A stretch of 34,770 nucleotides of DNA from positions 1 through 34,770 of IMG/VR virus record IMGVR_UViG_3300002230_000025, one strand, 5' to 3'. Positions 7,921-34,770 of the stretch are shown one piece after another; the stretch's first letter is position 1; each line of letters opens with the position of its first letter. A program made the position numbers and the translations under genes. Below the pieces are notes generated by a model that was not told the origin of the DNA, did not search any database, and saw only the letters and a program-made list of their open reading frames with translations. This DNA comes from a virus.

Positions 7921-8068
7921 TTTCTAATTCCTCTTCTCTGTGTCTGATGAGCCTATCTTCAAAGGCGTTTAGTAAATCGTCAGCGTCTATTTCAAGTATC
8001 TCTAAGATAAGTATCTCATCGTTTTCCCTGACGAACTGTTCCTTGTATTCCTCAAATGTTAGTGACAT
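7910..8068 (-). CDS. Small acidic protein, 52 aa
   Basis: An open frame beginning MSLTFEEYKEQFVREN, strongly acidic and predicted helical. It fills the only gap between endonuclease I and the DUF3310 gene, overlapping the former by 10 bases and the latter by 11. Its ribosome binding site is weak (GAGATAAG). No homologue recognised. Tight packing with both neighbours is the main support. Confidence 0.6.
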   Translation of the reverse strand: MSLTFEEYKEQFVRENDEILILEILEIDADDLLNAFEDRLIRHREEELENEH

Positions 8069-8442
8069 TTCTTATCTCTCACATACTGTAGTAGTTCGCT
8101 ACTTGTTTTAACAGTGAAGCATGGAAATCCTTCTTTCTCACACCACTGGCCCATAGTCATCTTACTACCCTTACGTACCTTTGTCAAGGTGTTTGACAAC
8201 ACAAAGACTAGCTCCCACTCTGGCATAGAGTCTCTGATAGCCTTGTACTTCTGTGTGTCACCTACCCTGAAGTAGCCCTTAGCCTCTATCAGTATCTTCT
8301 TGTCTTCGTTCACAAAGTCAGGAGTGTACTTCCTGTGTGTTGTGTAAGGCAAGTTGTAAGGCTCGTAGATAAACTCTTTGGTTAGTGCGTCTGCTAACGC
8401 TGATTCTAACCCTGACCTGTACTTCGTTTTCTTCTTAGTCAC
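8059..8442 (-). CDS. Endonuclease I-like Holliday junction resolvase
   Basis: Resembles T7 gene 3 endonuclease I (149 aa) over most of its 127 residues. YRSGLE supplies Glu13, YTPDF supplies Asp42, and LIEAKG supplies Glu53 and Lys55, the PD-(D/E)XK active site. A KGS...GQWCEKEGF segment matches the family's C-terminal region. The T7 enzyme resolves branched DNA before packaging and degrades host DNA. It overlaps the upstream exonuclease-like gene by 8 bases. Confidence 0.92.
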   Translation of the reverse strand: MTKKKTKYRSGLESALADALTKEFIYEPYNLPYTTHRKYTPDFVNEDKKILIEAKGYFRVGDTQKYKAIRDSMPEWELVFVLSNTLTKVRKGSKMTMGQWCEKEGFPCFTVKTSSELLQYVRDKKCH

Positions 8443-9307
8443 TGAGCTTCAACTCCTGTACGTTTGGCTCCTTCACTACCTCGCATAGATACTTAGGCTG
8501 GTAAGAGTAGTTAAACAAGCGCAGATTAGGGTAACAGTGCTGCTTGTACTGACAGTAAGAACAACCCATAGCCAGTTGCATATTACCTGACTTACCGTCT
8601 GGCTTAGGTTTATGGCACACTCTCCACGGCTCAGGCTTTTTTACCATCTCCTTGAGGTACTTAATCCTATCAGCTATCGTGCCATTGAACTCCATGTCAA
8701 CCTTAAACTCTGGGTCTGCTAAGTCGTACTTCAGGTAAGTGAGATGACCTACTGTCTTGTCGATGGCTAACCAACCAATCTGTGTCTCGCCTTCTGAGTA
8801 GGCGTAGGCTTTAATCTGGTCTACGTAGCCAAAGGGGTCATCCCTAAGTATCTTACCTTCTTTAAACTTCTTAAACCCAAAGCTGCTTGCAGACTTAACA
8901 TCTGTAACAATACCGTCAATCTTGCAATCCATAGAGCCTCTGATACCCTCTACCTCACACTGCTTCTGTTCGTCTGTAACTGTGTGGCCTGACATGCGAG
9001 TAAGAAACAACAACAACTCTTCCACTAAATGTCCATACATAAACTTAACGTAGGTGTGTGGCTCAATCTTCTCTTTCTTGGTACCGTTTACAACGTTCCA
9101 GAGGAATCTATCAGTGCGTCCTACGTTCGACAAGCGTAGCGTTCGTTTATCTACTCGCTTATCTCTGCCGAACTCTGTTCGCATTAGAGCCTTTACGTTT
9201 TCACCAAACTTCTCTATCTCTGCCTCTACGTCAACTGAGGGGTCTGCATCCTTGCTCTCCATCATTGCGTAGATGTCGTCTACCAGTGTGTCAGTCGTCT
9301 TGTTCAT
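8435..9307 (-). CDS. PD-(D/E)XK exonuclease, Cas4/RecB-like
   Basis: A 290-residue nuclease. GHLVEE near residue 92 corresponds to motif I. GSMDCKIDG and TDVKSAS give Asp127, Asp131, Asp136 and Lys138. DQIKAYAY (Gln164 to Tyr168) matches the RecB-family QxxxY motif. Four cysteines (231, 249, 252 and 258) near the C-terminus could bind an iron-sulphur cluster, as in Cas4 and AddB; that is inference. In this position it probably provides the 5' exonuclease used for recombination and host DNA breakdown, in place of T7 gp6. An AGGAG ribosome binding site lies 7 bases before the ATG. Confidence 0.82.
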   Translation of the reverse strand: MNKTTDTLVDDIYAMMESKDADPSVDVEAEIEKFGENVKALMRTEFGRDKRVDKRTLRLSNVGRTDRFLWNVVNGTKKEKIEPHTYVKFMYGHLVEELLLFLTRMSGHTVTDEQKQCEVEGIRGSMDCKIDGIVTDVKSASSFGFKKFKEGKILRDDPFGYVDQIKAYAYSEGETQIGWLAIDKTVGHLTYLKYDLADPEFKVDMEFNGTIADRIKYLKEMVKKPEPWRVCHKPKPDGKSGNMQLAMGCSYCQYKQHCYPNLRLFNYSYQPKYLCEVVKEPNVQELKLSD

Positions 9308-11643: not shown

Positions 11644-12141
11644 TTACGTTCCATGATTCGCGAACTCACCGTGTAGTTCCTCTCGTGCTTTACGTACTGC
11701 TATCTCAGCTTCAGGTACAGTACGGAAGTGGCCCAGATGTTTCCTCTTTCCATTGAGAGAAACCGAAGCACTCCACATGTTATGGGTTTCCTTCCATGTT
11801 ACTCCTTTAACTCCTGAAGTGTTGTTGCTTTGCCTGCCTTGGTTGTGGTTGTTCTGTGTAACGGTGGCAGCGCGTAAGTTCTCTATGCGGTTATTTTTCC
11901 TGTCAGTATCTATGTGGTCTAAGATAGAAGGTAGATAACCTTTGTGCATTAAAAATATTATCCGGTGATTAAAATACCTAACCCCTTTAATACTGGTTTT
12001 TAAGTAACCATATCCATCATCTTTGCCTACAACCTGTCCTGCTTCCGCACCTTTACGGACACTGATTTTGCGGATAAGATTACCAGTCTCCTTATCATAT
12101 CTAAACAACTTGTTTACTAAATCTAAAGTCAATTCTGTCAT
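11644..12141 (-). CDS. HNH homing-type endonuclease with AP2 domain
   Basis: An HNH nuclease segment (NHRIIF, DHIDTDRKNNRIENLR; residues about 60-100) is followed by an AP2-type DNA-binding domain (SGVKGVTWKETHNMW, GHFRTVPEAEIAV; about 108-160). This is a common free-standing phage homing endonuclease architecture. It sits between primase-helicase and polymerase, as an insertion in an otherwise continuous replication block. The ATG at 12141 is preferred: it follows GGAG at 7-base spacing and starts just after the helicase stop. An upstream in-frame start at 12162 would overlap the helicase gene. It probably cuts alleles lacking the insertion, and is not needed for replication itself. Confidence 0.9.
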   Translation of the reverse strand: MTELTLDLVNKLFRYDKETGNLIRKISVRKGAEAGQVVGKDDGYGYLKTSIKGVRYFNHRIIFLMHKGYLPSILDHIDTDRKNNRIENLRAATVTQNNHNQGRQSNNTSGVKGVTWKETHNMWSASVSLNGKRKHLGHFRTVPEAEIAVRKAREELHGEFANHGT

Positions 12142-12142
12142 G

Positions 12143-13786
12143 TTAGAACTCCACCTTATCATCGGCTACTGGACACGCTGTCTCAATCATACGGCCAGAG
12201 TCTTTATCGTAGTAGAGGTAACAAGCTGCACCAGTCAAACCAACAAACCGATTCTTAAGAACCCTGACGCAAGTAGTGTTACGTATATCAGCGTCTGGGT
12301 GCTGCTGGTCACGTTCTAAGCCAATAACCATGTCACTTAGCTGTGCGATACTGGCTGAACCTCTAAGCTCTCCTAAACTAATCTTACCGCCATCCTCGTG
12401 CGCCTTCTGACCTGACGGTCGGCGTAGGTGAGACACTAAGAACAAGCCAACACCTGTCTCCTGAACTATCTTACGGAGATTAGTCATAATACTGTCGATA
12501 GCCTTACGCTCGTCTCCGTTCGCTTGGTCACTGACTACGATGCTCAGGTGGTCTAGGATAATCCACTTGCAGTCTAAACCCTTAGCCATGTAGCGTATGC
12601 GGCCTAAGAGGTCATCCTCGCTGGTACTACCCCAATGGTCTAGCATATAGATACGCCCTGAACCCATTGTTTTTTCCCAGTAGCCTTTCTGCTCTTCGGT
12701 GGTAACTACTGCTTTAACGTCAGGTAAGTGTAGCTGCTTGTTGGCTTCGATAGACATAATGCCTAGTGCTGTCTTGGGTATGTCCTCTTCAAGTGCCAAG
12801 ATACCAATGTTATCTTCTGTCTGGTTCAACAAGTAGTGTTCCAGCTCACGTACTATCTGAGACTTACCCATGCCAGAACCTGAAGTAATGGTAACCAGCT
12901 CTTTAGCTCTAAAGCCGTGGGTGTACTCGTTTAGACATGTCCAAGGGTAAGGGATAGAAACAGTCTGTGCTTGCTCCTGTAGCAACTCCCAAGTGTCTAA
13001 GCCTGACACAATACCATCGGGTCTGAACACCTTAGCATCCCACCAGCTACTAACAAACTCTGACACCTTACGCGCCTTCAACATATCGCCTGCATCCTTC
13101 AGGGGCAGTGTTACGTTCTTAGCCTTGTTAGGTGTGAATAACGTTAGTACAGACTGTGCTGCTTCCTGTCCCGCCTTGTCGTTATCAAAACAGACAATCA
13201 CGTTATCGAAGCTCTCTAACCAGTCTAGGTTTGCTTTGATATCCTTAGTTGCACCGGCAGCGCCTGACCTAATCGATACTACTGGCCATTTGCCATCGAA
13301 CATCTCAGAGACAGCCATTGCGTCTGCCTCTCCCTCAGTGATGGTAATGTACTTACCGCCCTCTCTATACGCCTGTTGTCCAAACAGACCTACATTATCG
13401 AAGTTACCTGTGGCGTAGAATCCTTTGTTCTCTACCTGTCTGACCTTCGTCCCTGTGGCCTGACCTGTGTCTTTATCGTAGTACGGGTAATGATGCTTGA
13501 CAATCTTGCCCTCTGGGGAGAATTCTACAGTCACACCGAACTTAGCTGCGATTGCCTGTGAAATCTTCCTATCGGGGATTGACGCTATAGTTCCTGTCAT
13601 CTCAAATGCTCTTGTTGGTTTCTTAATTACATCAGCAAAGTCTGGGGCAGTTCCGTTGCCCCTCTCGTAGTGACCACACCCACCGCTGAAGCAGTGAGCG
13701 TGTCCATCAGAGTACCTTGCAAGGTTGTTGCCTGAACCACACTTAGGGCATGGCTCATGCTTTACAAAGGTAGACTCTTCTCTCAT
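12143..13786 (-). CDS. DNA primase-helicase, T7 gp4-like
   Basis: A 547-residue bifunctional replication protein (T7 gp4 is 566). The N-terminal zinc-binding site has Cys13, Cys16, Cys32 and Cys37. The TOPRIM primase core has ITEGEADA (Glu151) and FDNDKAG (Asp201, Asp203). The DnaB/RecA-type helicase has Walker A SGSGMGKS (Lys308), Walker B WIILDH (Asp412), then LFLVSHLRRPSG and GELRGSASIAQ. It unwinds DNA and lays RNA primers for the adjacent polymerase. Start ATG at 13786, with GAGG from the SSB 3' end as probable ribosome binding site. Confidence 0.96.
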   Translation of the reverse strand: MREESTFVKHEPCPKCGSGNNLARYSDGHAHCFSGGCGHYERGNGTAPDFADVIKKPTRAFEMTGTIASIPDRKISQAIAAKFGVTVEFSPEGKIVKHHYPYYDKDTGQATGTKVRQVENKGFYATGNFDNVGLFGQQAYREGGKYITITEGEADAMAVSEMFDGKWPVVSIRSGAAGATKDIKANLDWLESFDNVIVCFDNDKAGQEAAQSVLTLFTPNKAKNVTLPLKDAGDMLKARKVSEFVSSWWDAKVFRPDGIVSGLDTWELLQEQAQTVSIPYPWTCLNEYTHGFRAKELVTITSGSGMGKSQIVRELEHYLLNQTEDNIGILALEEDIPKTALGIMSIEANKQLHLPDVKAVVTTEEQKGYWEKTMGSGRIYMLDHWGSTSEDDLLGRIRYMAKGLDCKWIILDHLSIVVSDQANGDERKAIDSIMTNLRKIVQETGVGLFLVSHLRRPSGQKAHEDGGKISLGELRGSASIAQLSDMVIGLERDQQHPDADIRNTTCVRVLKNRFVGLTGAACYLYYDKDSGRMIETACPVADDKVEF

Positions 13787-13788
13787 CC

Positions 13789-14160
13789 TTAAAAATCCTC
13801 TGCGCCTTCCATCTCTGCTACTTCCAGAACCTTGACCTTGTTGAGGTAAGTACCAATACCATGTACAGGGTGCGGCTGACCATCTGTATACAATAGCCTG
13901 ACTTTGGAACCTCTGGTCACTCGACCACTAAAGGCTGACCCATCAGGGTTAAGTACTGGTACGTCAAACTTGCTGCTAAACTTACGCTGTTTGACACCCT
14001 CATACTCTCTCAACTTGACACCCTTGGCATCTAGCTCATCTGCTGTGGCATCATCTAAAGACACTACCAGAGAGAATTTACCAGTGGATTGACCGTTGTA
14101 CATCTCGTGTTCATTCAGGTTCTCAAATGCTACTGTACCTTCTAAAGTTGCTAATGACAT
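13789..14160 (-). CDS. Single-stranded DNA-binding protein, gp2.5-like
   Basis: A 123-residue protein beginning with a short beta-rich segment, then KFSLVVSLD, a charged middle and RGSKVRLLYTDGQ. It ends in an acidic tail closing with Phe (MEGAEDF), the hallmark of SSBs that recruit polymerase and helicase. It is much shorter than T7 gp2.5 (232 aa). It is the first gene of the replication block, directly upstream of the primase-helicase. AAGG lies 9 bases before the ATG. Its 124-bp upstream gap holds one copy of the repeated 21-bp regulatory-looking motif. Confidence 0.8.
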   Translation of the reverse strand: MSLATLEGTVAFENLNEHEMYNGQSTGKFSLVVSLDDATADELDAKGVKLREYEGVKQRKFSSKFDVPVLNPDGSAFSGRVTRGSKVRLLYTDGQPHPVHGIGTYLNKVKVLEVAEMEGAEDF

Positions 14161-14205
14161 AATTATTACCTTTCAGTTAGTTATTAAATTTACTTTGTTT
14201 ATCTT

Positions 14206-14226
14206 CTTTAGTATACCTAAGTATAC
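14206..14226 (-). promoter_or_regulatory. 21-bp palindromic motif, copy C, upstream of SSB
   Basis: On the minus strand this reads as GTAYACTTARGTAYACTAA followed by AG, 46 bases before the SSB start codon. Two further copies lie in the same orientation relative to the gene they precede, at 18889 and 19043. It is built around the near-perfect palindrome TAAGTATACTTA. It is probably an operator or activator site; the binding protein is unknown. The rest of 14161-14284 is AT-rich with no clear -35/-10 pair. Confidence 0.7.
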
Positions 14227-14284
14227 TTTAGTTAGTTACTTTAATGTTTAATCTTAAAGAACATAACATAAGTTCAGTCTAGCA

Positions 14285-14491
14285 TTAGTTATACCCTCTG
14301 TCAACCTCAAATTCATCTAAACTTACTGTAAAATCAATTTGGGTGTCAACTGTTGCGTCAAAATCAGTGTAAGCTTTAGTTGAAATCTTACTACAGCTAT
14401 AGCACATTCCTACCATTGTGTTTCCTGCACCGTAGGTTTTATCTAGCTCTACCCCTGTCAATATAACGTCACATGCTTTGCATCTACTCAT
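14285..14491 (-). CDS. Small zinc-finger-like protein, 68 aa
   Basis: Two CxxC pairs (CKAC at residues 4-7, CYSC at about 30-33) suggest a zinc ribbon in the N-terminal half, followed by an acidic C-terminal half. No family recognised. The start overlaps the end of the upstream gene by 8 bases, so it is part of the same message. Confidence 0.7.
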   Translation of the reverse strand: MSRCKACDVILTGVELDKTYGAGNTMVGMCYSCSKISTKAYTDFDATVDTQIDFTVSLDEFEVDRGYN

Positions 14492-14714
14492 CTCTGTTAC
14501 CCCCGAAGGCGCTGTCGTATTTTTGTTTAAAGTCGCTGTAAGGCATTGCGTGATATTCTTGTCGCAACCTATCAGCGGCCATGGCTTGCATCTCTGATAC
14601 TGTCATACAATAAAGTTGATACTCTACTAGCTCGCTAACTAAAACGTACTCTGTGTCAGCTAACCAGTCGCTCTGGTGGTCGTAACCTATCAACTGCTCT
14701 TTAATCTTACTCAT
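14484..14714 (-). CDS. Hypothetical protein, 76 aa
   Basis: A soluble, mixed-charge protein (starts MSKIKEQLIGYDHQ) with no recognised domain. It overlaps both neighbours by 8 bases, typical of a tightly packed early phage operon. Confidence 0.65.
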   Translation of the reverse strand: MSKIKEQLIGYDHQSDWLADTEYVLVSELVEYQLYCMTVSEMQAMAADRLRQEYHAMPYSDFKQKYDSAFGGNRDE

Positions 14715-14787
14715 CTGCGCTACCTCTCATCTCATCAATTGCGTAGTAGAATAAGCCTATCACTACCATTGCCCCTATAACTGCCAT
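14707..14787 (-). CDS. Tiny single-span membrane protein, 26 aa
   Basis: MAVIGAMVVIGLFYYAIDEM followed by a short charged tail. One hydrophobic helix covers nearly the whole N-terminal half. A GAGG ribosome binding site sits 8 bases before the ATG, within the end of the upstream gene, and the stop overlaps the next start by 8 bases. Role unknown; it exactly fills a gap in the operon. Confidence 0.55.
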   Translation of the reverse strand: MAVIGAMVVIGLFYYAIDEMRGSADE

Positions 14788-14789
14788 TT

Positions 14790-14996
14790 TTAATCCTCAT
14801 CAAATGTATAAACGTTACCCCAAGAAATAATAATACAGGGAAGCAGTATTATAACACCTTGAAAGGGCAGTGTCTCTATTTCTCCCGTTAAACTGTTCTG
14901 TGTGTACACTGGCCTGCTATCAACAAATTCAATATCTAAGCCGGTTCCCGCTCTGAACTCTATCGATAAATGCCTATTAAATATAAGCCAACTCAT
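14790..14996 (-). CDS. Hypothetical protein with C-terminal hydrophobic segment, 68 aa
   Basis: Starts MSWLIFNRHLSIEF. A hydrophobic stretch (GVIILLPCIIISWG, about residues 47-60) may be a membrane anchor or a buried beta hairpin. Its ATG overlaps the stop of the MazG-like gene by four bases (ATGA). No homologue recognised. Confidence 0.6.
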   Translation of the reverse strand: MSWLIFNRHLSIEFRAGTGLDIEFVDSRPVYTQNSLTGEIETLPFQGVIILLPCIIISWGNVYTFDED

Positions 14997-15415
14997 ACCC
15001 GACCCCCTTGTCTATGTAATAGACCCGCTGTAAACCCTTTCTCGAAGCTTGTAAGGGCTTCTGCTGCTTCTCCTGACCCTACCCCAAAGCCTTTTAAGTA
15101 TTCGCCGTCAGAATCGATTACAGTGCGTTCTTTAACGAATACACCGTCTACCATTTTACCCTTTCTATCTTTTATATCATCATAGGCAACCCGAAGGCAC
15201 TCAGAGAGGCCCAGATTGTTCCGTGTGGCGATATTGATTAGAACCACTAGGATATCCCCTATATCATCCGCAATGGGCTTAGACAGCAGTATGTTCGTTT
15301 CTAGCTCTTTTACCTCTTCTAACAGCTTGCCATTGAATTGTTGTAAGTCTGTAGACCCTTCAATCAGGTTTCGGTCGTGGTGCCATTGTTTAACTTTATC
15401 TATTAAATCATCCAT
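14993..15415 (-). CDS. MazG-like nucleotide pyrophosphohydrolase, 140 aa
   Basis: An all-alpha NTP pyrophosphatase pattern: KLLEEVKELE (Glu33, Glu34, Glu37) and, after 13 residues, DDIGDIL (Asp51, Asp54), followed by a second helical pair and KGKMVDGVFVKE. Family members hydrolyse (d)NTPs to monophosphates; phage versions have been linked to nucleotide salvage or alarmone control. It lies early in the leftward arm and may work with NrdJ and DUF3310 on the nucleotide pool (inference). ATG at 15415 is chosen; an in-frame TTG two codons upstream sits closer to the GAGG and could also be used. Confidence 0.82.
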   Translation of the reverse strand: MDDLIDKVKQWHHDRNLIEGSTDLQQFNGKLLEEVKELETNILLSKPIADDIGDILVVLINIATRNNLGLSECLRVAYDDIKDRKGKMVDGVFVKERTVIDSDGEYLKGFGVGSGEAAEALTSFEKGFTAGLLHRQGGRV

Positions 15416-15417
15416 TT

Positions 15418-15543
15418 TCAATTATCCTCATCTAGCCATTGATTATCGCCGCGCTCGTCTGCCAGCGCCTCATCTATTTCCCATTGTTCAAACTGTGGGC
15501 TATCGTCCTCCCACGTTAAATGTTCGTCTCCGTGCTCGTCCAT
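15418..15543 (-). CDS. Small very acidic protein, 41 aa
   Basis: Starts MDEHGDEHLTWEDDSPQF; almost half of its residues are Asp or Glu. Its ATG overlaps the stop of the gene before it (TAATG), and it ends two bases before the MazG-like start. Small acidic early phage proteins sometimes mimic DNA or inhibit host enzymes; that is only an idea here. Confidence 0.6.
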   Translation of the reverse strand: MDEHGDEHLTWEDDSPQFEQWEIDEALADERGDNQWLDEDN

Positions 15544-15749
15544 TACTTCACCCCCACAATTAAACCGTCCTGCATTGATACACTGGCGAAAAACTCGCGA
15601 CCTTTACCAGTAATGTGCGGCCTATTGGCTCCCGTCATTGTTCCAGTGCCTACGTATTCAGGGCCGAACATACTTGTTTCTATGTAGTCTAAGCGTTTAC
15701 CTATACTTTCCTTTAGTTCTTTTTTGCTTTTATAGTTAAAAATAATCAT
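15543..15749 (-). CDS. Hypothetical protein, 68 aa
   Basis: Starts MIIFNYKSKKELKESIGKRL, contains PEYVGTGTMTGANRPH, and ends in a short hydrophobic strand. It has the feel of a small mixed alpha/beta phage protein; no family recognised. Coupled by TAATG to the next gene. A 47-bp AT-rich gap (15750-15796) precedes it. Confidence 0.65.
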   Translation of the reverse strand: MIIFNYKSKKELKESIGKRLDYIETSMFGPEYVGTGTMTGANRPHITGKGREFFASVSMQDGLIVGVK

Positions 15750-15796
15750 TGTTTTTATACCTTTATTTAATTAGTTGAATGTTGAACTGTACAGCC

Positions 15797-16093
15797 TTAG
15801 ATTGATAAACGCAACCACTCGGCAGATAACCGCTCTGTGGCCGTCTCTAACCTGCTATACCCTACACTGTCGCGCCCCTTGTTACCGTATCGCTCTGGGT
15901 TGCGTTCGTGGGCCGGTGTAATATCCCAGTCGGTTATTTCATCCCTACCCTTTAAGCGCCGGTAGAGTGTGGCGTTACTTATACCTGTTATTAAAGCGAT
16001 TGCGTAAATGCTGTAACTAGCGCCGGTGATTAATCGCGGGTGCTCTCCGCTGAATATTAGCTCCTTAGTTTGTCGCATTGTTTCAAGCTCCAT
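15797..16093 (-). CDS. Helix-turn-helix DNA-binding protein, 98 aa
   Basis: Residues about 25-47 (SIYAIALITGISNATLYRRL) fit a helix-turn-helix: a first helix, a turn at Gly-Ile-Ser, and a recognition helix with Leu-Tyr-Arg-Arg, as in resolvase/Fis-like small regulators. The C-terminal half is Arg-rich. Candidate phage transcription regulator, and one possible binder of the 21-bp motif. ATG at 16093 is chosen; a TTG three codons upstream (16102) is an alternative, as neither has a strong ribosome binding site. The start lies inside the end of the upstream membrane-protein gene. Confidence 0.65.
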   Translation of the reverse strand: MELETMRQTKELIFSGEHPRLITGASYSIYAIALITGISNATLYRRLKGRDEITDWDITPAHERNPERYGNKGRDSVGYSRLETATERLSAEWLRLSI

Positions 16094-16247
16094 ATCGGGC
16101 AATCATTGCCCAGTTGAGGAACGTAAACATAGCGACGACACCCAATGACAGTGATAGATAAACCACCGCGTCCGCAATATGTTTCTCTATTCGTGCAAGC
16201 TTTAGCGCCTTTAGGTGGGCGCTGTTTCCCTTGTAATTGTTTAACAT
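16083..16247 (-). CDS. Small membrane protein, 54 aa
   Basis: Starts MLNNYKGNSAHLKALKLARI. A basic amphipathic N-terminus is followed by one transmembrane helix (about residues 26-50). It has a perfect AGGAGG ribosome binding site 8 bases before the ATG, among the strongest in the window, which argues that it is made in quantity. Function unknown; early phage membrane peptides often act on superinfection or host physiology. Confidence 0.65.
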   Translation of the reverse strand: MLNNYKGNSAHLKALKLARIEKHIADAVVYLSLSLGVVAMFTFLNWAMIARYGA

Positions 16248-16250
16248 TGT

Positions 16251-16466
16251 TTAAACCTCCTTATAATATGGAAATGATTGTTTGGCCGCTATTGTTGAGT
16301 ATTCGTCGCGGTGCTTATAGTACGTTATATGGCTATATTTAAAGCCGTTAGCGTCCGCGAATCTATATGCGAGCGTCTGAATATGCTTTATTCCGCGCCC
16401 TCTTATATTGGCTATATAGCTAACAGGTGCTAATCTGTCATTCTGAAAAACTGCTAGAGCTTGCAT
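16251..16466 (-). CDS. Hypothetical basic protein, 71 aa
   Basis: Starts MQALAVFQNDRLAP. Rich in Tyr, Arg and His, with no recognised domain; a small nucleic-acid-binding role is possible but not shown. It lies two bases after the stop of the 38-aa gene and three bases before the start of the membrane protein, and its last codons contain that gene's ribosome binding site. Confidence 0.6.
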   Translation of the reverse strand: MQALAVFQNDRLAPVSYIANIRGRGIKHIQTLAYRFADANGFKYSHITYYKHRDEYSTIAAKQSFPYYKEV

Positions 16467-16468
16467 AA

Positions 16469-16585
16469 TTAAACCCCCATTAAAATTGTTTTAAGTTGCT
16501 TAATAGATTTGCCAGTCATTGCCGACAATTCCGCTAGTGTGATATTGCTACCGTCAAAATATGCTTTTATATCGTCGTCACTCAT
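16469..16585 (-). CDS. Tiny helix-turn-helix-like protein, 38 aa
   Basis: Starts MSDDDIKAYFDGSN, then ITLAELSAMTGKSIKQLKTI, which reads like a minimal helix-turn-helix (helix, Met-Thr-Gly-Lys turn, recognition helix). The ATG follows the stop of the gp88-like gene by one base, with GGTGG as ribosome binding site. Could be a very small regulator. Confidence 0.55.
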   Translation of the reverse strand: MSDDDIKAYFDGSNITLAELSAMTGKSIKQLKTILMGV

Positions 16586-16586
16586 T

Positions 16587-17420
16587 TTATCCACCTATTG
16601 CTATAATATCATTAAACGCGACCAGATTCGCCGCTGTAACAAAGAAACTGTTTTCCTGTAGGTTATCCGCTGCGCGTACTGCTTTGCTACTACCCTTGCG
16701 CGTCAAGCTACCAACAACTGCGCCGTCAAGATGCCGCAAATCTGTTTTATCGAATGACGCCAGGCTGTGGCTAATCTGTAATTCGTCACTAGCTAGACCT
16801 TTAGTATTAAACGCCACGGCTATACGGTGACCAGCCTTGACTGCCTTCTTAAACGCTGCGCGGCTCTGTTTGCTGAACATACTGGCACTATACGTCAAAT
16901 CGTAGTTTGCAAGGGTATTTTTGCGCACGCTTGATAATACTTTGCTGTAGTCATAAAACAGTGATTTAGGACGCTCTTTGATAATATCGGTATAATCTAT
17001 ATCACTAGTACCATTGAGGCGAAATAATGCCGGTATGCCAGTCTTAAGCGCCTTACGTTCTGCCTTATCTATTTCAGACAATAGCGCAGCCTTGTAACTA
17101 TCGGGACGCAGTAGCATTAAAATAGTGCGTTTAGTTGCTGCGCGCTGGCCGGTACTCATACCCAACTGGCCGGAGCTAATAAGACAAGGCTCTTTGCATC
17201 CTGCCGCTGCCGCAAAGGCGCATAGCGTAGCAGTAGCTACTTTATCAGCCGGTTGCAAGTACTGGATATAAGTATCGAATTTATCCGCACCCTTTTCTAC
17301 CTTTAAAGAACTACCTAGATAGCGCATCGGCTTATTAAGATAGTCTAGATTATCAATGGCCCACTGCTGGGCACTGGCGTTGATGGCTTTGCTTTGCTGT
17401 ATTTCTGATTTAGTTATCAT
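16587..17420 (-). CDS. gp88-like phage protein of unknown function, 277 aa
   Basis: The central region (TLCAFAAAAGCKEPCLISSG, then Arg-Ala-Ala-x-Lys-Arg-Thr, LRPDSYKAALLSEI and RLNGTSDIDY) matches my recollection of the actinophage gp88-type family (possibly Pfam DUF7227). Members carry a cluster of cysteines, a Gly-rich segment and an Asn-Gly-x-Ser/Thr-Asp motif; biochemical function is not established. Three cysteines (at about 67, 75 and 79) could bind metal. It is by far the largest gene in the leading early cluster and probably acts early in takeover of the cell (inference). Ribosome binding site AGGA lies 10 bases before the ATG. Confidence 0.5.
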   Translation of the reverse strand: MITKSEIQQSKAINASAQQWAIDNLDYLNKPMRYLGSSLKVEKGADKFDTYIQYLQPADKVATATLCAFAAAAGCKEPCLISSGQLGMSTGQRAATKRTILMLLRPDSYKAALLSEIDKAERKALKTGIPALFRLNGTSDIDYTDIIKERPKSLFYDYSKVLSSVRKNTLANYDLTYSASMFSKQSRAAFKKAVKAGHRIAVAFNTKGLASDELQISHSLASFDKTDLRHLDGAVVGSLTRKGSSKAVRAADNLQENSFFVTAANLVAFNDIIAIGG

Positions 17421-17495
17421 GGTAATATAATCCTATTTACTTTATTAAATTGGTTTAATGGTAGCCACTCTATGCGAATGGCTACGATAAATCAA

Positions 17496-17708
17496 CTACG
17501 CCTCAACGTACCATTCACCGTTGTCCGTCAAGGTTAAATTCATTTGCGTCCTGTCACTTTCAACACGTATCGTAGGCCAGTGTTTAACAGTGTAAGCGTT
17601 AGCTATCCAGTCGTTCAACTCTTCAACAGTGTTCAAGTGTTCCTTATTCGTCAATCGTCCATCTATCTCATATGCCCGTGGTAACTCTACTTTATAAACT
17701 TTAAACAT
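17496..17708 (-). CDS. Hypothetical protein, 70 aa
   Basis: Starts MFKVYKVELPRAYEI; mixed alpha/beta, ending DNGEWYVEA. No family recognised. An AAAGGG ribosome binding site lies in the end of the upstream gene. A 75-bp gap (17421-17495) separates it from the gp88-like gene. Confidence 0.6.
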   Translation of the reverse strand: MFKVYKVELPRAYEIDGRLTNKEHLNTVEELNDWIANAYTVKHWPTIRVESDRTQMNLTLTDNGEWYVEA

Positions 17709-17714
17709 AATGTT

Positions 17715-18110
17715 CTACCCTTTGCTGATTAAGTGTTGCGCTCGCTGCGCCCGTGATTCTTTAAGTTCAGCCTGCTTATCTTGCAATCTCTTCAGCTCCT
17801 CATCAACTGCTACTTTATCGGCGGCAATCTGTGCGCGTCTCACTGCTGCGCGGGCTTTTTCCAGTGCGCTGTTATCACTTAAACTGTTCCAAGTTTTATG
17901 GCTCGCCGTGGAATAACCAACTTCAAGCTGCGCGGCCAATACCCGATATTCTGCGCGTCTAACAGACACCCGGTCTATTTCGACAGCGGTAGCGTCCGGC
18001 CCATATAGTGCCCAATATTCAGAATCTAAACTGCTAATTTTCTCTTGTACTGCTACAAGTAACAGGTGCAGTTCGTTTTGATTGTTCAAGTCTATTTTAT
18101 AGTTGGTCAT
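17715..18110 (-). CDS. Coiled-coil hypothetical protein, 131 aa (first leftward gene)
   Basis: Starts MTNYKIDLNNQNELH. Most of the protein is charged helix, with a strong coiled-coil prediction by eye over residues 85-131 (Ala/Arg/Glu/Lys/Gln heptads). It is the first gene of the leftward arm and so probably the earliest expressed. ATG at 18110 is preferred because GAGG lies 9 bases before it; an in-frame ATG at 18125 lacks a ribosome binding site. Function unknown. Confidence 0.6.
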   Translation of the reverse strand: MTNYKIDLNNQNELHLLLVAVQEKISSLDSEYWALYGPDATAVEIDRVSVRRAEYRVLAAQLEVGYSTASHKTWNSLSDNSALEKARAAVRRAQIAADKVAVDEELKRLQDKQAELKESRAQRAQHLISKG

Positions 18111-18230
18111 AATGTCTTGCCTCATTTTGGTGCGTTTAATTAAGTAGGTCTTTCTCGTCTTGATGGGTGTATTCTAAAGCATAGCCGCATGATGTCTATA
18201 CCTAAATTCATATAGTGCCCATTCATCAAA

Positions 18231-18258
18231 CTTATATCACTCCGGGCTTAGATATAAG
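18231..18258. repeat. Inverted repeat CTTATATC / GATATAAG
   Basis: Perfect 8-bp arms separated by 12 bases (CTCCGGGC within the loop), 121 bases upstream of the first leftward gene. It could be an operator or an RNA hairpin in the leader of the leftward transcript. Confidence 0.7.
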
Positions 18259-18620
18259 GAGCGGGCGCGCGTAAATAACATAGACTGACAGAGAATGCTA
18301 ATACTATTTAGTTATAAGCAGACGACCACCATATACCCATAAACAGTAGCACCTCTACAGGCCAGCAGTGGCGTGGGATACAGAGGATTTCGACGTTCTC
18401 CTAGTGACCTATGCCCTAGTATAGATGACAAGTGCAAGCGCTTAGAAGGCAATACAGGGCCATCTATAAACATATAACTACCAGTGATAATGCTTTTGAT
18501 TAACATAATTATCAGTGATGCAATGTTGGCATAGGTTTTGCTAGTGTGGGCCTGTAGGTATCCTATAGCATACTCACTCCCCCAGTGTACAGATATAAAC
18601 GTGACTACATCCTGGATTCT

Positions 18621-18700
18621 GGTCACCAATTGAGTTGCCTGTGTGCCTTGAGTGTGCTAGTGATTCCCCGTGACCCTGGAGTACCATCCGGTCACCAATT
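18621..18700. repeat. Direct repeat GGTCACCAATT, two copies
   Basis: GGTCACCAATT occurs at 18621-18631 and 18690-18700, 69 bases apart, in the divergent control region. GGTCACC/GGTGACC is itself a near palindrome. A protein-binding site is likely; which protein is unknown. Confidence 0.7.
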
Positions 18701-18888
18701 AGGCTTGACAATCCCTGTAGCCTATGATAAACAGGGGCCGGGGGGGGGCTGGTTTGCTTGGGTATTATTATGGGTACCCTATGATATACAAAAAAGTGGC
18801 CATTTAAGAAGACGTGTGTTACCATAAGTAACAGTATTGTGTGTAAATAGGTGGCCCGTAAGTCATTGATTTATAAGGGAGTTCGCGG

Positions 18889-18910
18889 GTACACTTAAGT
18901 ACACTAAAGG
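18889..18910 (+). promoter_or_regulatory. 21-bp palindromic motif, copy A, upstream of the late promoter
   Basis: Matches the shared pattern GTAYACTTARGTAYACTAA with C at both Y positions, followed by AGG. It ends 26 bases before the -35 box of the rightward promoter, a usual location for an activator site. Confidence 0.7.
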
Positions 18911-18936
18911 GTAGTCTAAATTAACTAAAATACTTC

Positions 18937-18965
18937 TTGACTTCTAAGCTAAAATATGTTATAAT
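18937..18965 (+). promoter_or_regulatory. Sigma70-type promoter for the rightward arm
   Basis: TTGACT at 18937-18942 and TATAAT at 18960-18965 with a 17-bp spacer, one base from full consensus. The -10 box lies about 120 bases before the first rightward gene, so the message has a long leader that includes motif copy B. Confidence 0.9.
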
Positions 18966-19042
18966 ATACCTATGTTATAAATTACTTCATTTAGTTATTA
19001 ACATTAAGATATTAACAAAAGAACTTAACTAAAGGGTCTTAA

Positions 19043-19063
19043 GTATACTTAAGTATACTAAGG
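19043..19063 (+). promoter_or_regulatory. 21-bp palindromic motif, copy B, in the leader of the rightward message
   Basis: Matches the shared pattern GTAYACTTARGTAYACTAA with T at both Y positions, followed by GG. It lies 78 bases downstream of the -10 box and 19 bases before the first start codon. In DNA it could be a roadblock operator; in RNA the palindromes could fold close to the ribosome binding site. Confidence 0.7.
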
Positions 19064-19082
19064 TAGCCCCATAGGAGTTATA

Positions 19083-19490
19083 TTGACTGATAAAAAAGTA
19101 AAGAACCAAGCCTCGAAGAGGATTGGGCGTCCTCCTAAGTCTGAGATTGTCAGCCGCAAGCGGGGAACCGTTGGCTCAGTAGGTCGTCCCAAGGGTGATG
19201 CTGCTATCATCAATGAGTACAAGACTAGGATGCTTACGTCTCCTAAGTCTAAGAAGGTCTTAGAGTCTATCTTTGATGCTGCTCTGGATGATGAGCATAA
19301 GAATCAGGCTGCTGCTTGGAAGCTAGTGATGGATAGGGTCTTACCTACCAGCTACTTCGAAAAGGATGCCGCAGGCGGTAACAAGGGTGGCATCAACATA
19401 TCAATCACTGGTGTCGGTGGTGAGAAGACTGTCATCTCAGGTGGCTCAACAGAGCCTGTAGCAGAAGGGGAGTACACCGAAGATGTATGA
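19083..19490 (+). CDS. Probable small terminase subunit, 135 aa
   Basis: Two AT-hook-like Gly-Arg-Pro elements near the N-terminus (RIGRPPKS, VGRPKGD) suggest DNA binding. A helical core follows (YKTRMLTSPKSKKVLESIF, then AAWKLVMDRVLP), and the C-terminus is Gly/Glu-rich. Proteins of this form precede the large terminase in many podoviruses, so it probably recognises the packaging site; direct evidence is limited to position and DNA-binding motifs. The start is TTG at 19083, with AGGAG 5 bases before it; no in-frame ATG is suitably placed. Confidence 0.6.
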   Translation: MTDKKVKNQASKRIGRPPKSEIVSRKRGTVGSVGRPKGDAAIINEYKTRMLTSPKSKKVLESIFDAALDDEHKNQAAAWKLVMDRVLPTSYFEKDAAGGNKGGINISITGVGGEKTVISGGSTEPVAEGEYTEDV

Positions 19491-19857
19491 TATTAACCAA
19501 GACCTAGATTACTTCACCAGAGAAGAGTTTGCCTGTCAGCACACAGGTGAGAATGAAATTAAAGATACATTCCTATTGAAGCTAGACCTGTTAAGAGCAA
19601 GGTGTGGCTTCCCATTTGTTATTACTAGTGGCTATCGTAGCCCCGAACATCCGATTGAATCGAGAAAGGAGAAAGCAGGAACTCATGCCCAAGGCATTGC
19701 AGCAGACATTAAAGTTAGTACGGCACAACAGAGGTACACGTTGGTTGAGGAAGCTATCAAGATGGGATTTGGAGGCATTGGAATACACAGTGTGTTCGTC
19801 CATATTGATATGCGCAGTGTTGACGGTAATTCTAAACCTGTAATGTGGTTATATTGA
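19483..19857 (+). CDS. Peptidase M15-type endolysin, 124 aa
   Basis: A zinc peptidase that cuts peptidoglycan cross-peptides. SGYRSPEH, GTHAQGIAADI (His68, Asp75) and FVHIDM (His107, Asp109) give the zinc-binding His-Asp-His set of the M15A/DUF882-type peptidases. No signal peptide or membrane segment is present, so release would need a holin (candidates at 29374 and 29577). It overlaps the small terminase gene by 8 bases and directly abuts the large terminase start, an unusual place for a lysis gene. Confidence 0.88.
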   Translation: MYDINQDLDYFTREEFACQHTGENEIKDTFLLKLDLLRARCGFPFVITSGYRSPEHPIESRKEKAGTHAQGIAADIKVSTAQQRYTLVEEAIKMGFGGIGIHSVFVHIDMRSVDGNSKPVMWLY

Positions 19858-21111
19858 GTGACTGACTTAAAAGTTGAGCTACTGCCTTGGCAACAAGAGG
19901 TCTGGAATGACCCCTGTCGCTTCCAAGTAATAGCTGCTGGTAGACGTACAGGTAAGTCTCGTCTCGCTGCGTGGAAGTTAATCATTGAAGGTTTGACTAC
20001 TACTAAGGGTCATGTTTTCTATGTAGCTCCTACACAGGGTCAGGCTAGAGACATTATGTGGCAGACGTTACTGGAAGTAGGTAACCCTGTCATTACCTCT
20101 AGCCACGTAAACAACCTACAGATTAAGCTAATCAACGGTGCTACCATCGCACTCAAGGGCGCTGACAGACCAGAGACCATGCGTGGTGTCAGCCTTAAGT
20201 TCTTGGTCATGGATGAGTACGCCGACATGAAGCCGGAGGTCTGGGAGCAAATCCTAAGACCTGCCCTAGCTGACCAGAAGGGTTCAGCGATGTTCATAGG
20301 CACGCCTATGGGCCGTAACCACTTCTTTGACCTACATCAGTACTCTGTGCTGGCTAAGGATGATGACTGGAGTGGTTGGCACTTTACTAGTTACGATAAT
20401 CCGTTACTAGACGAAGAAGAGATTAACAAAGCTCAGAAGTCGATGTCAGCCTTCTCCTTCCGACAGGAGTTCATGGCGTCCTTTGAGGCAGCAGGTGGTG
20501 AACTCTTTAAGGAAGAGTTCGTAAAGTTCTCAGAGGAAGAGCCTGAAGATGGTAATTATTACATTGCTGTCGATTTGGCAGGATTTGCAGATGTACAGAA
20601 AGCTACAACTAAAACTAATCGTCTTGACCAAACGGCTATCGCTGTGGTTAAAGCAGGCACTGAGGGTTGGTGGGTTGCTAATATCATACATGGCCGTTGG
20701 GGCGTCGAAGAGACTGCCAGACGAATCTTTGAAGCAGTCAGAGACTACAAACCAATCTCAGTAGGTATTGAGAAAGGTGCGTTAAAGAACGCTGTGTATC
20801 CTTACTTGAATGATATAATGAAGAAGAACCAGCGGTTCTTTAGAGTAGAAGAGCTTTCACACGGTAATCAGAGAAAGATAGACAGAGTTGTCTGGGCATT
20901 ACAAGGACGCTTTGAGCACGGTAACATCACACTAAACAAGGGTGAGTGGAACACACAGTTCTTAGATGAACTATTCCAGTTCCCCAATAAGCTTGTTCAC
21001 GATGACTTGATAGATGCCTTGGCTTACATAGACCAGCTCGCTAAGGTGGCTTACGCTATTGACTTCGAAGAAGAAGAATACGAATTCATGGACACATACT
21101 CAGGGTACTAA
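19858..21111 (+). CDS. terL: Terminase large subunit
   Basis: The packaging motor ATPase and nuclease. Walker A AAGRRTGKS (Lys33), Walker B FLVMDEYAD (Asp119, Glu120) and coupling motif IGTP (148-150) mark the ATPase. The RNase H-like nuclease has YIAVDLAG (Asp239), VGIEKG (Glu305) and VHDDLIDALAY (Asp382, Asp386). At 417 residues it is compact. Start is GTG at 19858, immediately after the endolysin TGA, so translation is probably coupled. The portal gene starts 2 bases after its stop. Confidence 0.95.
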   Translation: MTDLKVELLPWQQEVWNDPCRFQVIAAGRRTGKSRLAAWKLIIEGLTTTKGHVFYVAPTQGQARDIMWQTLLEVGNPVITSSHVNNLQIKLINGATIALKGADRPETMRGVSLKFLVMDEYADMKPEVWEQILRPALADQKGSAMFIGTPMGRNHFFDLHQYSVLAKDDDWSGWHFTSYDNPLLDEEEINKAQKSMSAFSFRQEFMASFEAAGGELFKEEFVKFSEEEPEDGNYYIAVDLAGFADVQKATTKTNRLDQTAIAVVKAGTEGWWVANIIHGRWGVEETARRIFEAVRDYKPISVGIEKGALKNAVYPYLNDIMKKNQRFFRVEELSHGNQRKIDRVVWALQGRFEHGNITLNKGEWNTQFLDELFQFPNKLVHDDLIDALAYIDQLAKVAYAIDFEEEEYEFMDTYSGY

Positions 21112-26116: not shown

Positions 26117-27733
26117 ATGTCGATATATAGAGGTGAGGGTGGTTCAGGTGACGCTACCAATGACGCTACAATAAGTGATGCTACAGCTCAAGCGGTCATA
26201 GCTTCTACAAAAGCAGGTGAAGCAGCAGCAAGTGCAACAGCAGCAGCAGCCTCTGCAACGAGTGTACAGACCCTCACAGCAGCAACAGGAGCCGCTGGAA
26301 GCTCTGCGTCTTACAACGCTGGCACTAACACCCTAACTGTGCCAAGAGGCGACACAGGGGCAACAGGTTCTACTGGTGCTAAAGGAGATACTGGTGCTCA
26401 AGGTGCTCAAGGTGCTCAAGGTGCTCAAGGTAATACTGGTGCTGCCGGAGCCGATGGTACAGGGGCTACTACGTCTTCTGTAACAGCCGCTGGTGCTTTA
26501 ATGGACAGCGAAGTAACTAACCTTGCACAGGTTAAAGCTTTTGCCGCTTCTGACTATGCTACAGCAGCACAGGGAACTTTAGCTGCTGCGGCGCTCCCTA
26601 AGTCAGGCGGCGCTATGACTGGCGCTATCACTACCAACAGCACCTTTGACGGCGTAGATATTGCTACACGAGATGGCGTTTTAACCAGCACTACAACTAC
26701 TGCCAATGCTGCGCTTCCCAAGTCTGGTGGTGCTATGACGGGTGCAATTACTACTAACAGCACTTTCGATGGCGTGGACATTGCTACACGCGATGGTGTG
26801 TTGACTACTACTACTAACACCGCTAATGCCGCTTTACCTAAAGCTGGTGGAGCAATGACAGGCGCTATTACAACTAACAGCACCTTTGATGGCCGTGATG
26901 TAGCTACTGACGGCACTAAACTAGATGGTATAGAAGCTAGTGCAGACGTTACGGACACAACTAATGTAGTGGCTTCTTTAACCGCAGGCTCTAACATTAC
27001 TATTGCTGCTGACGGAACAATTGCAAGCACGGCATCTGGTGGTGGCGGTGAAACTTTAGCCCAGACCCTAGCACTTGGCAATACTACAGGCGGCACAGAC
27101 TTAGTAGTTTCTACGGGAGATAGTATTACTCTTCCTGACGGAGCGAAGATTAAGCTTGGTGACGAGCCAAACCTAGAAATTTCCCACAGCGGTACACATT
27201 CTATTATTGAGGACGTAGGTGGTGGCAGTTTATTTATTAAAGGCGGCCCACAACTTAAACTATTTAATGATACTGAAAGTGCTGTTCTTTGTCAGAAGGA
27301 CGCTGGTGTAACGTTATATCACAACAACATAGCTAAGGTTGTAACAACTGCAACAGGTTTAAGTGTTACTGGTACAACAGTTACTGACGCTATTACTATT
27401 GCAGGCGCTATTACAGAAGATGCTGTAACGCTTACCGGAACCTCTACAACTATTGACCTAGCTACCGCTACTAACTTTGTGCATGACCTCACAGGCGCTA
27501 CTACTTACACGTTTAGCAACCCAGCAGCCACAGGCAACGCCTCTAGTTTCACGCTCAAAATTATTCAAGACGCAACAGCCCGAACGATTACTTGGCCTGC
27601 TACCGTTAGGTGGGCAGAAGGAACTGCGCCAACGCTTTCCACGGCCAATAACGCAGTAGATGTGTTTACGTTTTATACTATTGATGGTGGTTCTAACTAC
27701 TACGGCTTTACGGCTGGACAGGCGATGGCATAA
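26117..27733 (+). CDS. Collagen-like tail fibre protein, 538 aa
   Basis: An Ala/Thr-rich N-terminus is followed by a collagen-like Gly-x-y region (about residues 78-116, with four GAQ triplets). From about residue 159 come three 40-residue fibre repeats of the ALPKSGGAMTGAITTNSTFD type. A LEISHSGTHS / VTLYHNNIAK region follows, shared with the second fibre at 34461. The C-terminal domain is probably beta-structured (YTFSNPAATGNASSF). ATG at 26117 with AGGAG is chosen; the open frame extends upstream into the capsid gene and terminator, so earlier starts are excluded. Trimeric adhesive fibre is inferred; lying right after the capsid gene is unusual. Confidence 0.82.
   Translation: MSIYRGEGGSGDATNDATISDATAQAVIASTKAGEAAASATAAAASATSVQTLTAATGAAGSSASYNAGTNTLTVPRGDTGATGSTGAKGDTGAQGAQGAQGAQGNTGAAGADGTGATTSSVTAAGALMDSEVTNLAQVKAFAASDYATAAQGTLAAAALPKSGGAMTGAITTNSTFDGVDIATRDGVLTSTTTTANAALPKSGGAMTGAITTNSTFDGVDIATRDGVLTTTTNTANAALPKAGGAMTGAITTNSTFDGRDVATDGTKLDGIEASADVTDTTNVVASLTAGSNITIAADGTIASTASGGGGETLAQTLALGNTTGGTDLVVSTGDSITLPDGAKIKLGDEPNLEISHSGTHSIIEDVGGGSLFIKGGPQLKLFNDTESAVLCQKDAGVTLYHNNIAKVVTTATGLSVTGTTVTDAITIAGAITEDAVTLTGTSTTIDLATATNFVHDLTGATTYTFSNPAATGNASSFTLKIIQDATARTITWPATVRWAEGTAPTLSTANNAVDVFTFYTIDGGSNYYGFTAGQAMA
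26393..26428 (+). repeat. Four tandem 9-bp units coding Gly-Ala-Gln
   Basis: GGTGCTCAA is repeated four times without change inside the collagen-like region. Perfect short repeats of this type change copy number easily, altering fibre length. Confidence 0.95.
26591..26910 (+). repeat. 120-bp tandem repeats (three units, last one shortened)
   Basis: Units begin at 26591, 26711 and 26831 and encode the 40-residue fibre repeat. The third diverges after GRDVATDGTKLDG. Synonymous differences between units indicate an older duplication than the 9-bp array. Confidence 0.9.
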
Positions 27734-34460: not shown

Positions 34461-34770
34461 ATGACTGCATATAACGTAACCACTAATTTTGGTTCTAAAG
34501 ACGACCTAGCGTCAGGAAATACCGCTAAAAAAATTAAAGGCTCAGAGTTCACTACTGAGTTTAATAACATTGCTACAGGAGTAAACAGTAAGGCCGACAC
34601 GACTACTGTAAACACTACTACAGCAACAGCTAACGCTGCTCTTCCTAAAGCTGGTGGAACCATGTCGGGTGCAATAGCAATGGGAACCTCCAAGATTACT
34701 GGAGCAGGAAACCCAACTGATGCTCAGGACGTAGCTACAAAAGCTTACGTTGACACTAGCTCTGGCGCTG
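34461..34770 (+). CDS. Tail fibre-like protein, N-terminal part (continues at base 3)
   Basis: The ATG directly follows the TAA of the tail tubular B-like gene (34458-34460). The window cuts the gene after about 103 codons, and the rest is found at 3-689 because the ends repeat. The N-terminus (MTAYNVTTNFGSKDDLASGN) probably docks the fibre to the tail, by analogy with podovirus fibres; this is inference. It is followed by a fibre repeat of the ALPKAGGTMSGAI type. Confidence 0.75.
   Translation, partial: MTAYNVTTNFGSKDDLASGNTAKKIKGSEFTTEFNNIATGVNSKADTTTVNTTTATANAALPKAGGTMSGAIAMGTSKITGAGNPTDAQDVATKAYVDTSSGA
34510..34770. repeat. Terminal direct repeat, right copy
   Basis: Exact copy of positions 1-261. 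It contains codons 17 onward of the fibre gene that starts at 34461. Joining this copy to the left one restores a continuous reading frame that ends at 689. Confidence 0.95.

Follow-up and report, generated by a model that had tools for sequence, protein, structure and literature searches.

A probable early gene block of an uncultured marine phage appears to join an exchangeable module led by GP88 to a syntenic core before the replication operon

What does a run of mostly small genes do at the start of one arm of a phage genome, and do its members belong together? This question is raised by the minus-strand block at positions 18125 to 14285 of the IMG/VR virus record IMGVR_UViG_3300002230_000025, whose full length of 34,770 nucleotides is called the window here. 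The block appears to consist of two parts, a CpG-rich, exchangeable module led by a gene of the GP88 family (g1 to g9) and a syntenic core that precedes the replication operon (g10 to g14). Our best explanation of the whole, held with modest confidence, is a host-takeover and switch operon of an uncultured marine phage with two functional halves. The distal half, g1 to g9, would be the exchangeable host-takeover module, in which GP88 is accompanied by putative helix-turn-helix (HTH), small membrane and very acidic proteins; the proximal half, g10 to g14, would set the stage for replication and for turning on later genes. MazG (g10) would hydrolyse nucleotides. The CTWWRG repeats, phased at 10 bp in the leaders of the replication operon and of the rightward arm, would be acted on by g14 or g13, or alternatively by a product of the replication module such as Ssb. 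The operon is ordinary in kind and offers two leads, the chemistry of GP88 and the phased leader arrays.

The division rests on gene order and on composition. The order g11-g13-g14-ssb-primase is kept in dozens of loci, often with MazG ahead, and the genes upstream of this core are variable among relatives, in which the content of g1 to g9 differs. The enrichment in GCG/CGC words that the preliminary description had seen at 15400-18130 was borne out, with 43.9 per kb versus 13.7 in the rest of the arm at a G+C of 0.439 versus 0.447, and this density is the highest among all 2.7-kb windows of the genome. The observed/expected ratio of CpG is 1.21 in 15400-18130, 0.79 in g10 to g14 and 0.63 in the replication genes. 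Codon usage is not uniform, and codon choice shifts sharply at ~15,400, between g9 and g10: the share of NCG among four-fold Ala/Pro/Ser/Thr codons is 0.257 in g1 to g9, 0.113 in g10 to g14, 0.101 in the replication genes and 0.072 in the late genes. The word CGCGCAG was also considered as a signal and rejected; its six coding-strand copies are mostly the codon pair CGC GCA (Arg-Ala).

Thirteen genes had been described in the block, which holds fourteen open reading frames (ORFs), the one left unnamed being MazG-like (PHROG E = 6e-33); the extent of the block and the sizes and coordinates of the 98-, 38-, 54-, 26- and 41-residue ORFs and of the gp88-like ORF stand. Amino-acid (pN) and synonymous (pS) changes were compared with homologues from relatives gathered with GP88, primase and g11 as queries. 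The ORFs are, in order of transcription (lengths in amino acids, aa):

17715..18125, minus strand: g1, 131-136 aa, first gene of the arm; 6 relatives, the two best with pN/pS 0.32-0.33
17496..17708, minus strand: g2, 70 aa; one relative (L148), 41% identity, pN/pS 0.44
16587..17420, minus strand: GP88 family, 277 aa; PF17338, with C67-x7-C75-x3-C79 invariant
16469..16585, minus strand: g4, 38 aa, weakly HTH-like; 12 relatives, up to 100% amino-acid identity with pS 0.55
16251..16466, minus strand: g5, 71 aa; 83% identity in L026 with pN/pS 0.16, three others ~28%
16083..16247, minus strand: g6, 54 aa, probably membrane; 26 relatives, median pN/pS 0.14 in the 19 with >50% identity
15797..16093, minus strand: g7, 98 aa, HTH-like; 43 relatives, HTH_7 E = 0.0014
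15543..15749, minus strand: g8, 68 aa, phrog_37117 (unknown function), E = 2e-20; 11 relatives
15418..15543, minus strand: g9, 41 aa, very acidic; 52 relatives, median pN/pS 0.29
14993..15412, minus strand: g10, MazG-like nucleoside triphosphate pyrophosphohydrolase, 139 aa; 66 relatives, ATG start, with TTG at 15421 also possible
14790..14996, minus strand: g11, 68 aa, five predicted beta strands; 474 IMG/VR stretches
14707..14787, minus strand: g12, 26 aa, one hydrophobic segment by inspection; 2 relatives, 92% and 60%
14484..14714, minus strand: g13, 76 aa, N-terminal MSKIKE..IGYE conserved in the alignment; 123 relatives
14285..14491, minus strand: g14, 68 aa, CxxC-x22-CxxC, zinc-ribbon-like; 146 relatives

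For each of the fourteen ORFs, including those of 38 and 41 residues, synonymous changes outnumber amino-acid changes in the comparison with one homologue or more, and pN/pS lies mostly between 0.02 and 0.4. Values against relatives were pN 0.029 and pS 0.50 for gp88, 0-0.01 and ~0.5 for g4, 0.04 and 0.43-0.78 for g9, and 0.025 and 0.37 for g6; coding support is thinnest for g2 (70 aa, one relative) and g12 (26 aa, two relatives). Because their homologues show low pN/pS, the short ORFs are real genes, almost all of them under purifying selection. The early position proposed for the block agrees with the placement of GP88 as gene 1 of HMO-2011 and as gene 2-3, before the RNA polymerase gene, in CRP-143 and HTVC134P; in 22 relatives, the distance between gp88 and the beginning of the opposite arm is 550-2364 bp (median 1290). 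Judged by position, the block is probably an early operon.

The gp88-like protein, correctly named in the preliminary description, scores 86.7 bits against PF17338 (gathering cut-off 24.4), and all 73 aligned members match that profile as well. Its three cysteines C67, C75 and C79 (CX7CX3C) are invariant in 73/73, and K40, R134, N136, T138, D140, Y156, Y158, K160, D224, D227, R229 and K242 are also conserved. An AlphaFold2 (AF2) model with a predicted local distance difference test score (pLDDT) of 91 and a predicted TM score of 0.88 has a beta/alpha fold with the cysteine loop following strand 1, an order of elements that fits a partial (beta/alpha)6 barrel in which strand 1 leads into the cluster loop. 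Foldseek found 13 viral models below E = 0.001, named GP88 or Gp37/Gp68-like, or unnamed or uncharacterized. A relation to DUF5131 (PF07505) emerged from profile searches: matches of PF17338 coincide with DUF5131 places in seven genomes (G016, G059, G101, G105, G155, G178 and G180), and the GP88 profile scores two DUF5131 proteins above its cut-off (31.5 and 25.3 versus 24.4 bits; best E = 2e-7). By hhalign, RLNGTSD...FYDYTK of GP88 aligned with SMSD...LTKRP of DUF5131 (E = 1e-4). DUF5131 in turn matches TIGR04471, "radical SAM mobile pair protein A" (SAM, S-adenosylmethionine), with E = 4e-21, under the equivalog cut-off of that model.

Through this profile chain from GP88 over DUF5131 to radical SAM mobile pair protein A, we infer that GP88 is radical-SAM-like; it is not filed as a member of the superfamily because the canonical CX3CX2C motif is absent. 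GP88 is likely to be an iron-sulphur enzyme with a distant relation to DUF5131 and to radical-SAM proteins. Several points weigh against this assignment: Foldseek with the GP88 model gave no PDB fold match below E = 0.001, radical SAM structures included; the hhalign probability is 57% over 48 columns only; and the spacing CX7CX3C differs from the canonical one. PDB searches with GP88, DUF5131 and an intermediate protein likewise gave no useful match. DUF5131 shares with GP88 a three-cysteine motif as well as the two aligned motif pairs (RLNGTSD/SMSD and FYDYTK/LTKRP); its cysteines are spaced CX6CX2C, and some of its genes stand beside TcmP, whereas this block has no TcmP-sized gene. In two genomes (L330 and L331), DUF5131 genes directly adjoin genes matching TcmP. 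GP88 may be the phage counterpart of TcmP's DUF5131 partner.

A non-enzymatic GP88, whose cysteines bind structural zinc and which acts as a binding inhibitor of a host complex, is the less likely case, though one to be taken seriously. Early phage proteins are often binders, no solved homologue was found in the searches above and the cysteine spacing is noncanonical, but the many invariant polar residues in 73 sequences resemble an active site, and the homology to DUF5131 also speaks for an enzyme. GP88 relatives occur in at least 577 IMG/VR stretches and 258 phage records, with function unassigned, and our literature search found no paper naming PF17338. For this widespread family, the link to iron-sulphur and radical chemistry provides a concrete first test of the enzymatic reading.

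The second lead lies in the signals that flank the block and the rightward arm:

18937..18965, plus strand: rightward-arm promoter of sigma70 type, TTGACT-17-TATAAT with TG; 11/12 consensus match, strong
18171..18198, minus strand: candidate early promoter upstream of g1, TAGACA-16-TAGAAT; 10/12 consensus only
14206..14231, minus strand: CTWWRG units in tandem every 10 bp, in the leader of the ssb/primase/polymerase operon; also in relatives
18888..18909, no strand: CTWWRG pair or palindrome ~28 bp upstream of the rightward -35 box; also in L002, L065 and L258
19038..19063, plus strand: CTWWRG units in tandem, in the rightward-arm leader

The relatives examined for it show a comparable rightward promoter layout; promoter and terminator scans of the window as a whole gave totals no higher than shuffles. 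Rightward-arm leaders (n = 34) contain 47 CTWWRG pairs at 10-bp spacing, where base shuffling gives a mean of 0.02, and ssb leaders (n = 47) contain 18, with a null mean of 0.03. In the window, the paired pattern occurs 8 times versus 0.74 expected, a count attained by 1/100 shuffles. Of 50 non-redundant loci, 28 have the exact core TACTTAAGTA in the 450 bp that precede the first rightward gene, and all 21 usable loci with it carry g14 and ssb (Fisher p = 0.015 and 0.003). The four usable loci without the core (within one mismatch) have no ssb, though their first rightward gene is 62-72% similar, as in many core-bearing loci. Because the exact core co-occurs with g14 and ssb, the pattern points to a CTWWRG-acting factor encoded with the replication module, for which g14, g13 and Ssb are candidates. 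The repeated signal in the DNA that borders the block may form part of a switch that activates the rest of the genome. The early block itself has no CTWWRG array beside its first gene, the nearest being ~760 bp off. Two other ideas were discarded: a perfect-palindrome operator, since the arm spacing differs among relatives, which was superseded by the phased CTWWRG units, and g7 as regulator of the arrays, since the presence of g7 does not follow that of the repeat (4 with, 17 without; Fisher p = 0.16).

Against a factor from the replication module stands the confounding of the co-occurrence by relatedness and by joint exchange of the whole replication module, and also the option that the repeats act in RNA. 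According to the latter, the arrays would be RNA hairpins governing translation of ssb and of the first rightward gene rather than DNA operators. The two arrays are leader elements placed shortly before the ribosome-binding site, and their arms covary in several relatives, but the strict 10-bp phasing and the copy upstream of the promoter at 18888 better suit a DNA-binding array. RNA hairpins were dropped as the main explanation on a mean folding z-score of -0.29 over 42 ssb leaders, and we keep them as a tentative alternative of lower standing. A bolder form of the DNA-binding reading, which we regard as doubtful, would have GP88 as an early divergent radical-SAM-type enzyme modifying a host target or the nucleotide pool in many marine phages and mycobacteriophages, together with a zinc-ribbon regulator that times replication and late genes through the CTWWRG arrays.

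The ~0.95 kb between the arms (18130-19080) has no convincing gene and several short direct and inverted repeats; an origin of replication or a non-coding RNA is possible there. Rfam and tRNA scans of the window gave no match. The adjoining "terS" at 19083-19490 is named by position only, with no family match.

Could g1 to g9 simply be recently acquired foreign DNA, a moron-like cargo with other codon habits and no joint function? The sharp codon and CpG boundary would fit, and exchange is evident. Loci L065 and L066 share the primase at 98-99% as well as g6, g7 and g9, with no match to g1 to g5, gp88 included; L065 (primase 99%) carries 5.6 kb of upstream sequence, and L066 only a short stretch, so that absence there says little. 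Conversely, the nearest gp88 (L053, 96%) neighbours a primase of merely 48%. However, the CpG ratio of gp88 exceeds that of the primase gene in 36/36 genomes of differing backgrounds (mean 1.17 versus 0.73; Wilcoxon 1.7e-7, a value that overstates independence as the genomes are related), and its position near the arm start is conserved. The different history suggested in the preliminary description thus holds as to the sharp boundary and the exchange of the module between genomes, but not as one recent import, because CpG richness is a lasting property of gp88. A single import accounts for the signature less well than a gene pool that has codon preferences of its own, or than selection acting differently on early genes, and we consider the cargo explanation rather unlikely. 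It is very improbable that the block is no more than ordinary filler made of small, unimportant ORFs evolving almost neutrally: the content of g1 to g9 varies and, in the laboratory, phages can dispense with many of their early genes, but pN/pS is well below 1 for nearly all ORFs.

Among the other products of the module, g1 is charged and probably helical by inspection, with all Pfam matches sub-threshold, and its relatives in L129, L079 and L078 are likewise upstream-most among the genes detected. Both HTH candidates of the preliminary description fall below family cut-offs, which tells against the host-takeover explanation: g7 resembles HTH_7 (19.2 bits, cut-off 23.8), a weak lead, and g4 has weak profile matches (PHROG repressor, E = 0.04; HTH_15, E = 0.03). 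In 17 sequences of g7, R20, G24, Y27, T42, R46 and the C-terminal W93-L94 are invariant. The two tiny proteins described as membrane proteins have one hydrophobic segment each by inspection, and the reading is probable for g6 (54 aa); g12 (26 aa) matches PHROG 28777 (unknown function; E = 0.002). The extreme acidity of g9 was confirmed (17/41 residues D/E). A search of PADLOC-DB, which holds mainly defence rather than anti-defence models, with ten block proteins gave a sole match: 23 residues of g7 resemble mad1 with E = 0.006, too weak to use. The preliminary suggestion that genes of this kind disable host defence or transcription gained no direct support.

In the core, g10 matches the MazG families PHROG 1992 and 715 (E = 6e-33 and 1e-31), falls below the cut-off in NCBIfam and has no match in Pfam; by inspection, its metal motif keeps EEVKE and has DDIGD in place of ExxD in the second half. 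For MazG of HMO-2011-type phages, hydrolysis of deoxynucleoside triphosphates has been weighed against a role in (p)ppGpp metabolism (PMC9038755). The AF2 model of g11 (pLDDT 88) has five strands and found no PDB match in a fold search. Neither g11 nor g13 has a match in 50,697 phage records, and g11 appears as a hallmark of an uncultured lineage. In g14, C4, C7, C30 and C33 are invariant in 42/42 sequences, forming two CxxC knuckles; no Pfam or NCBIfam family is above cut-off, and the protein is zinc-ribbon-like.

The ends of the window, 1-261 and 34510-34770, are identical over 261 bp, so the record is probably a complete genome of ~34.5 kb, cut within a structural gene. The leftward arm runs from the block through ssb, primase/helicase, HNH, DNA polymerase and nucleases to ribonucleotide reductase, and the rightward arm encodes peptidase/endolysin, terminase, portal, capsid and tail proteins. 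No near-identical record for 13000-21000 was found among phage records, the best match of TerL there has 43% identity over half its length, and the DNA polymerase is ~51% identical to that of HTVC103P; on these grounds, the phage appears to represent an uncultured marine tailed lineage with no close cultured relative in this phage collection. A T7-type RNA polymerase gene was not found in the window by a search that recovers one in two phages known to have one, and the phage seems to rely on host RNA polymerase. The genes g11 and g13 and the leader arrays mark a lineage of hundreds of contigs; they also present a candidate transcription switch that can be put to the test in a phage of this kind. 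In the leftward arm, the HNH endonuclease gene (11644-12162) sits between primase and DNA polymerase and has a homologue in 1 of ~140 loci (L067, 97%), which suggests a recent homing insertion, although some loci stop short of this position. A Cas4-like exonuclease (8435-9307; PHROG 1990, E = 7e-36) adjoins an endonuclease gene (8059-8442). Nine-base tandem repeats at 26338-26463 would translate as collagen-like Gly-x-x in a probable tail or fibre gene.

The closest known layouts are those of the marine phages HMO-2011, CRP-143 and HTVC134P (L220-L222), in which GP88 stands first or nearly first among small genes of unknown function, with primase and polymerase genes after them; CRP-143 and HTVC134P also share ssb in the early region. 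In contrast to these three, the window phage is laid out in two divergent arms, and a gene for a T7-type RNA polymerase was not found in it. In transcriptomes of pelagiphages, a phage that encodes no polymerase of its own expresses genes of unknown function early (PMC12753301). Cluster A mycobacteriophages, unlike the window phage, are temperate, with a repressor and stoperators. The likeness to them is one of position: GP88 relatives lie on the leftward strand near the right end of the mycobacteriophage genomes among the matches listed, and for cluster A, with its Pleft early operon, strong early transcription is reported at the right end (PMC5712189, PMC4626039).

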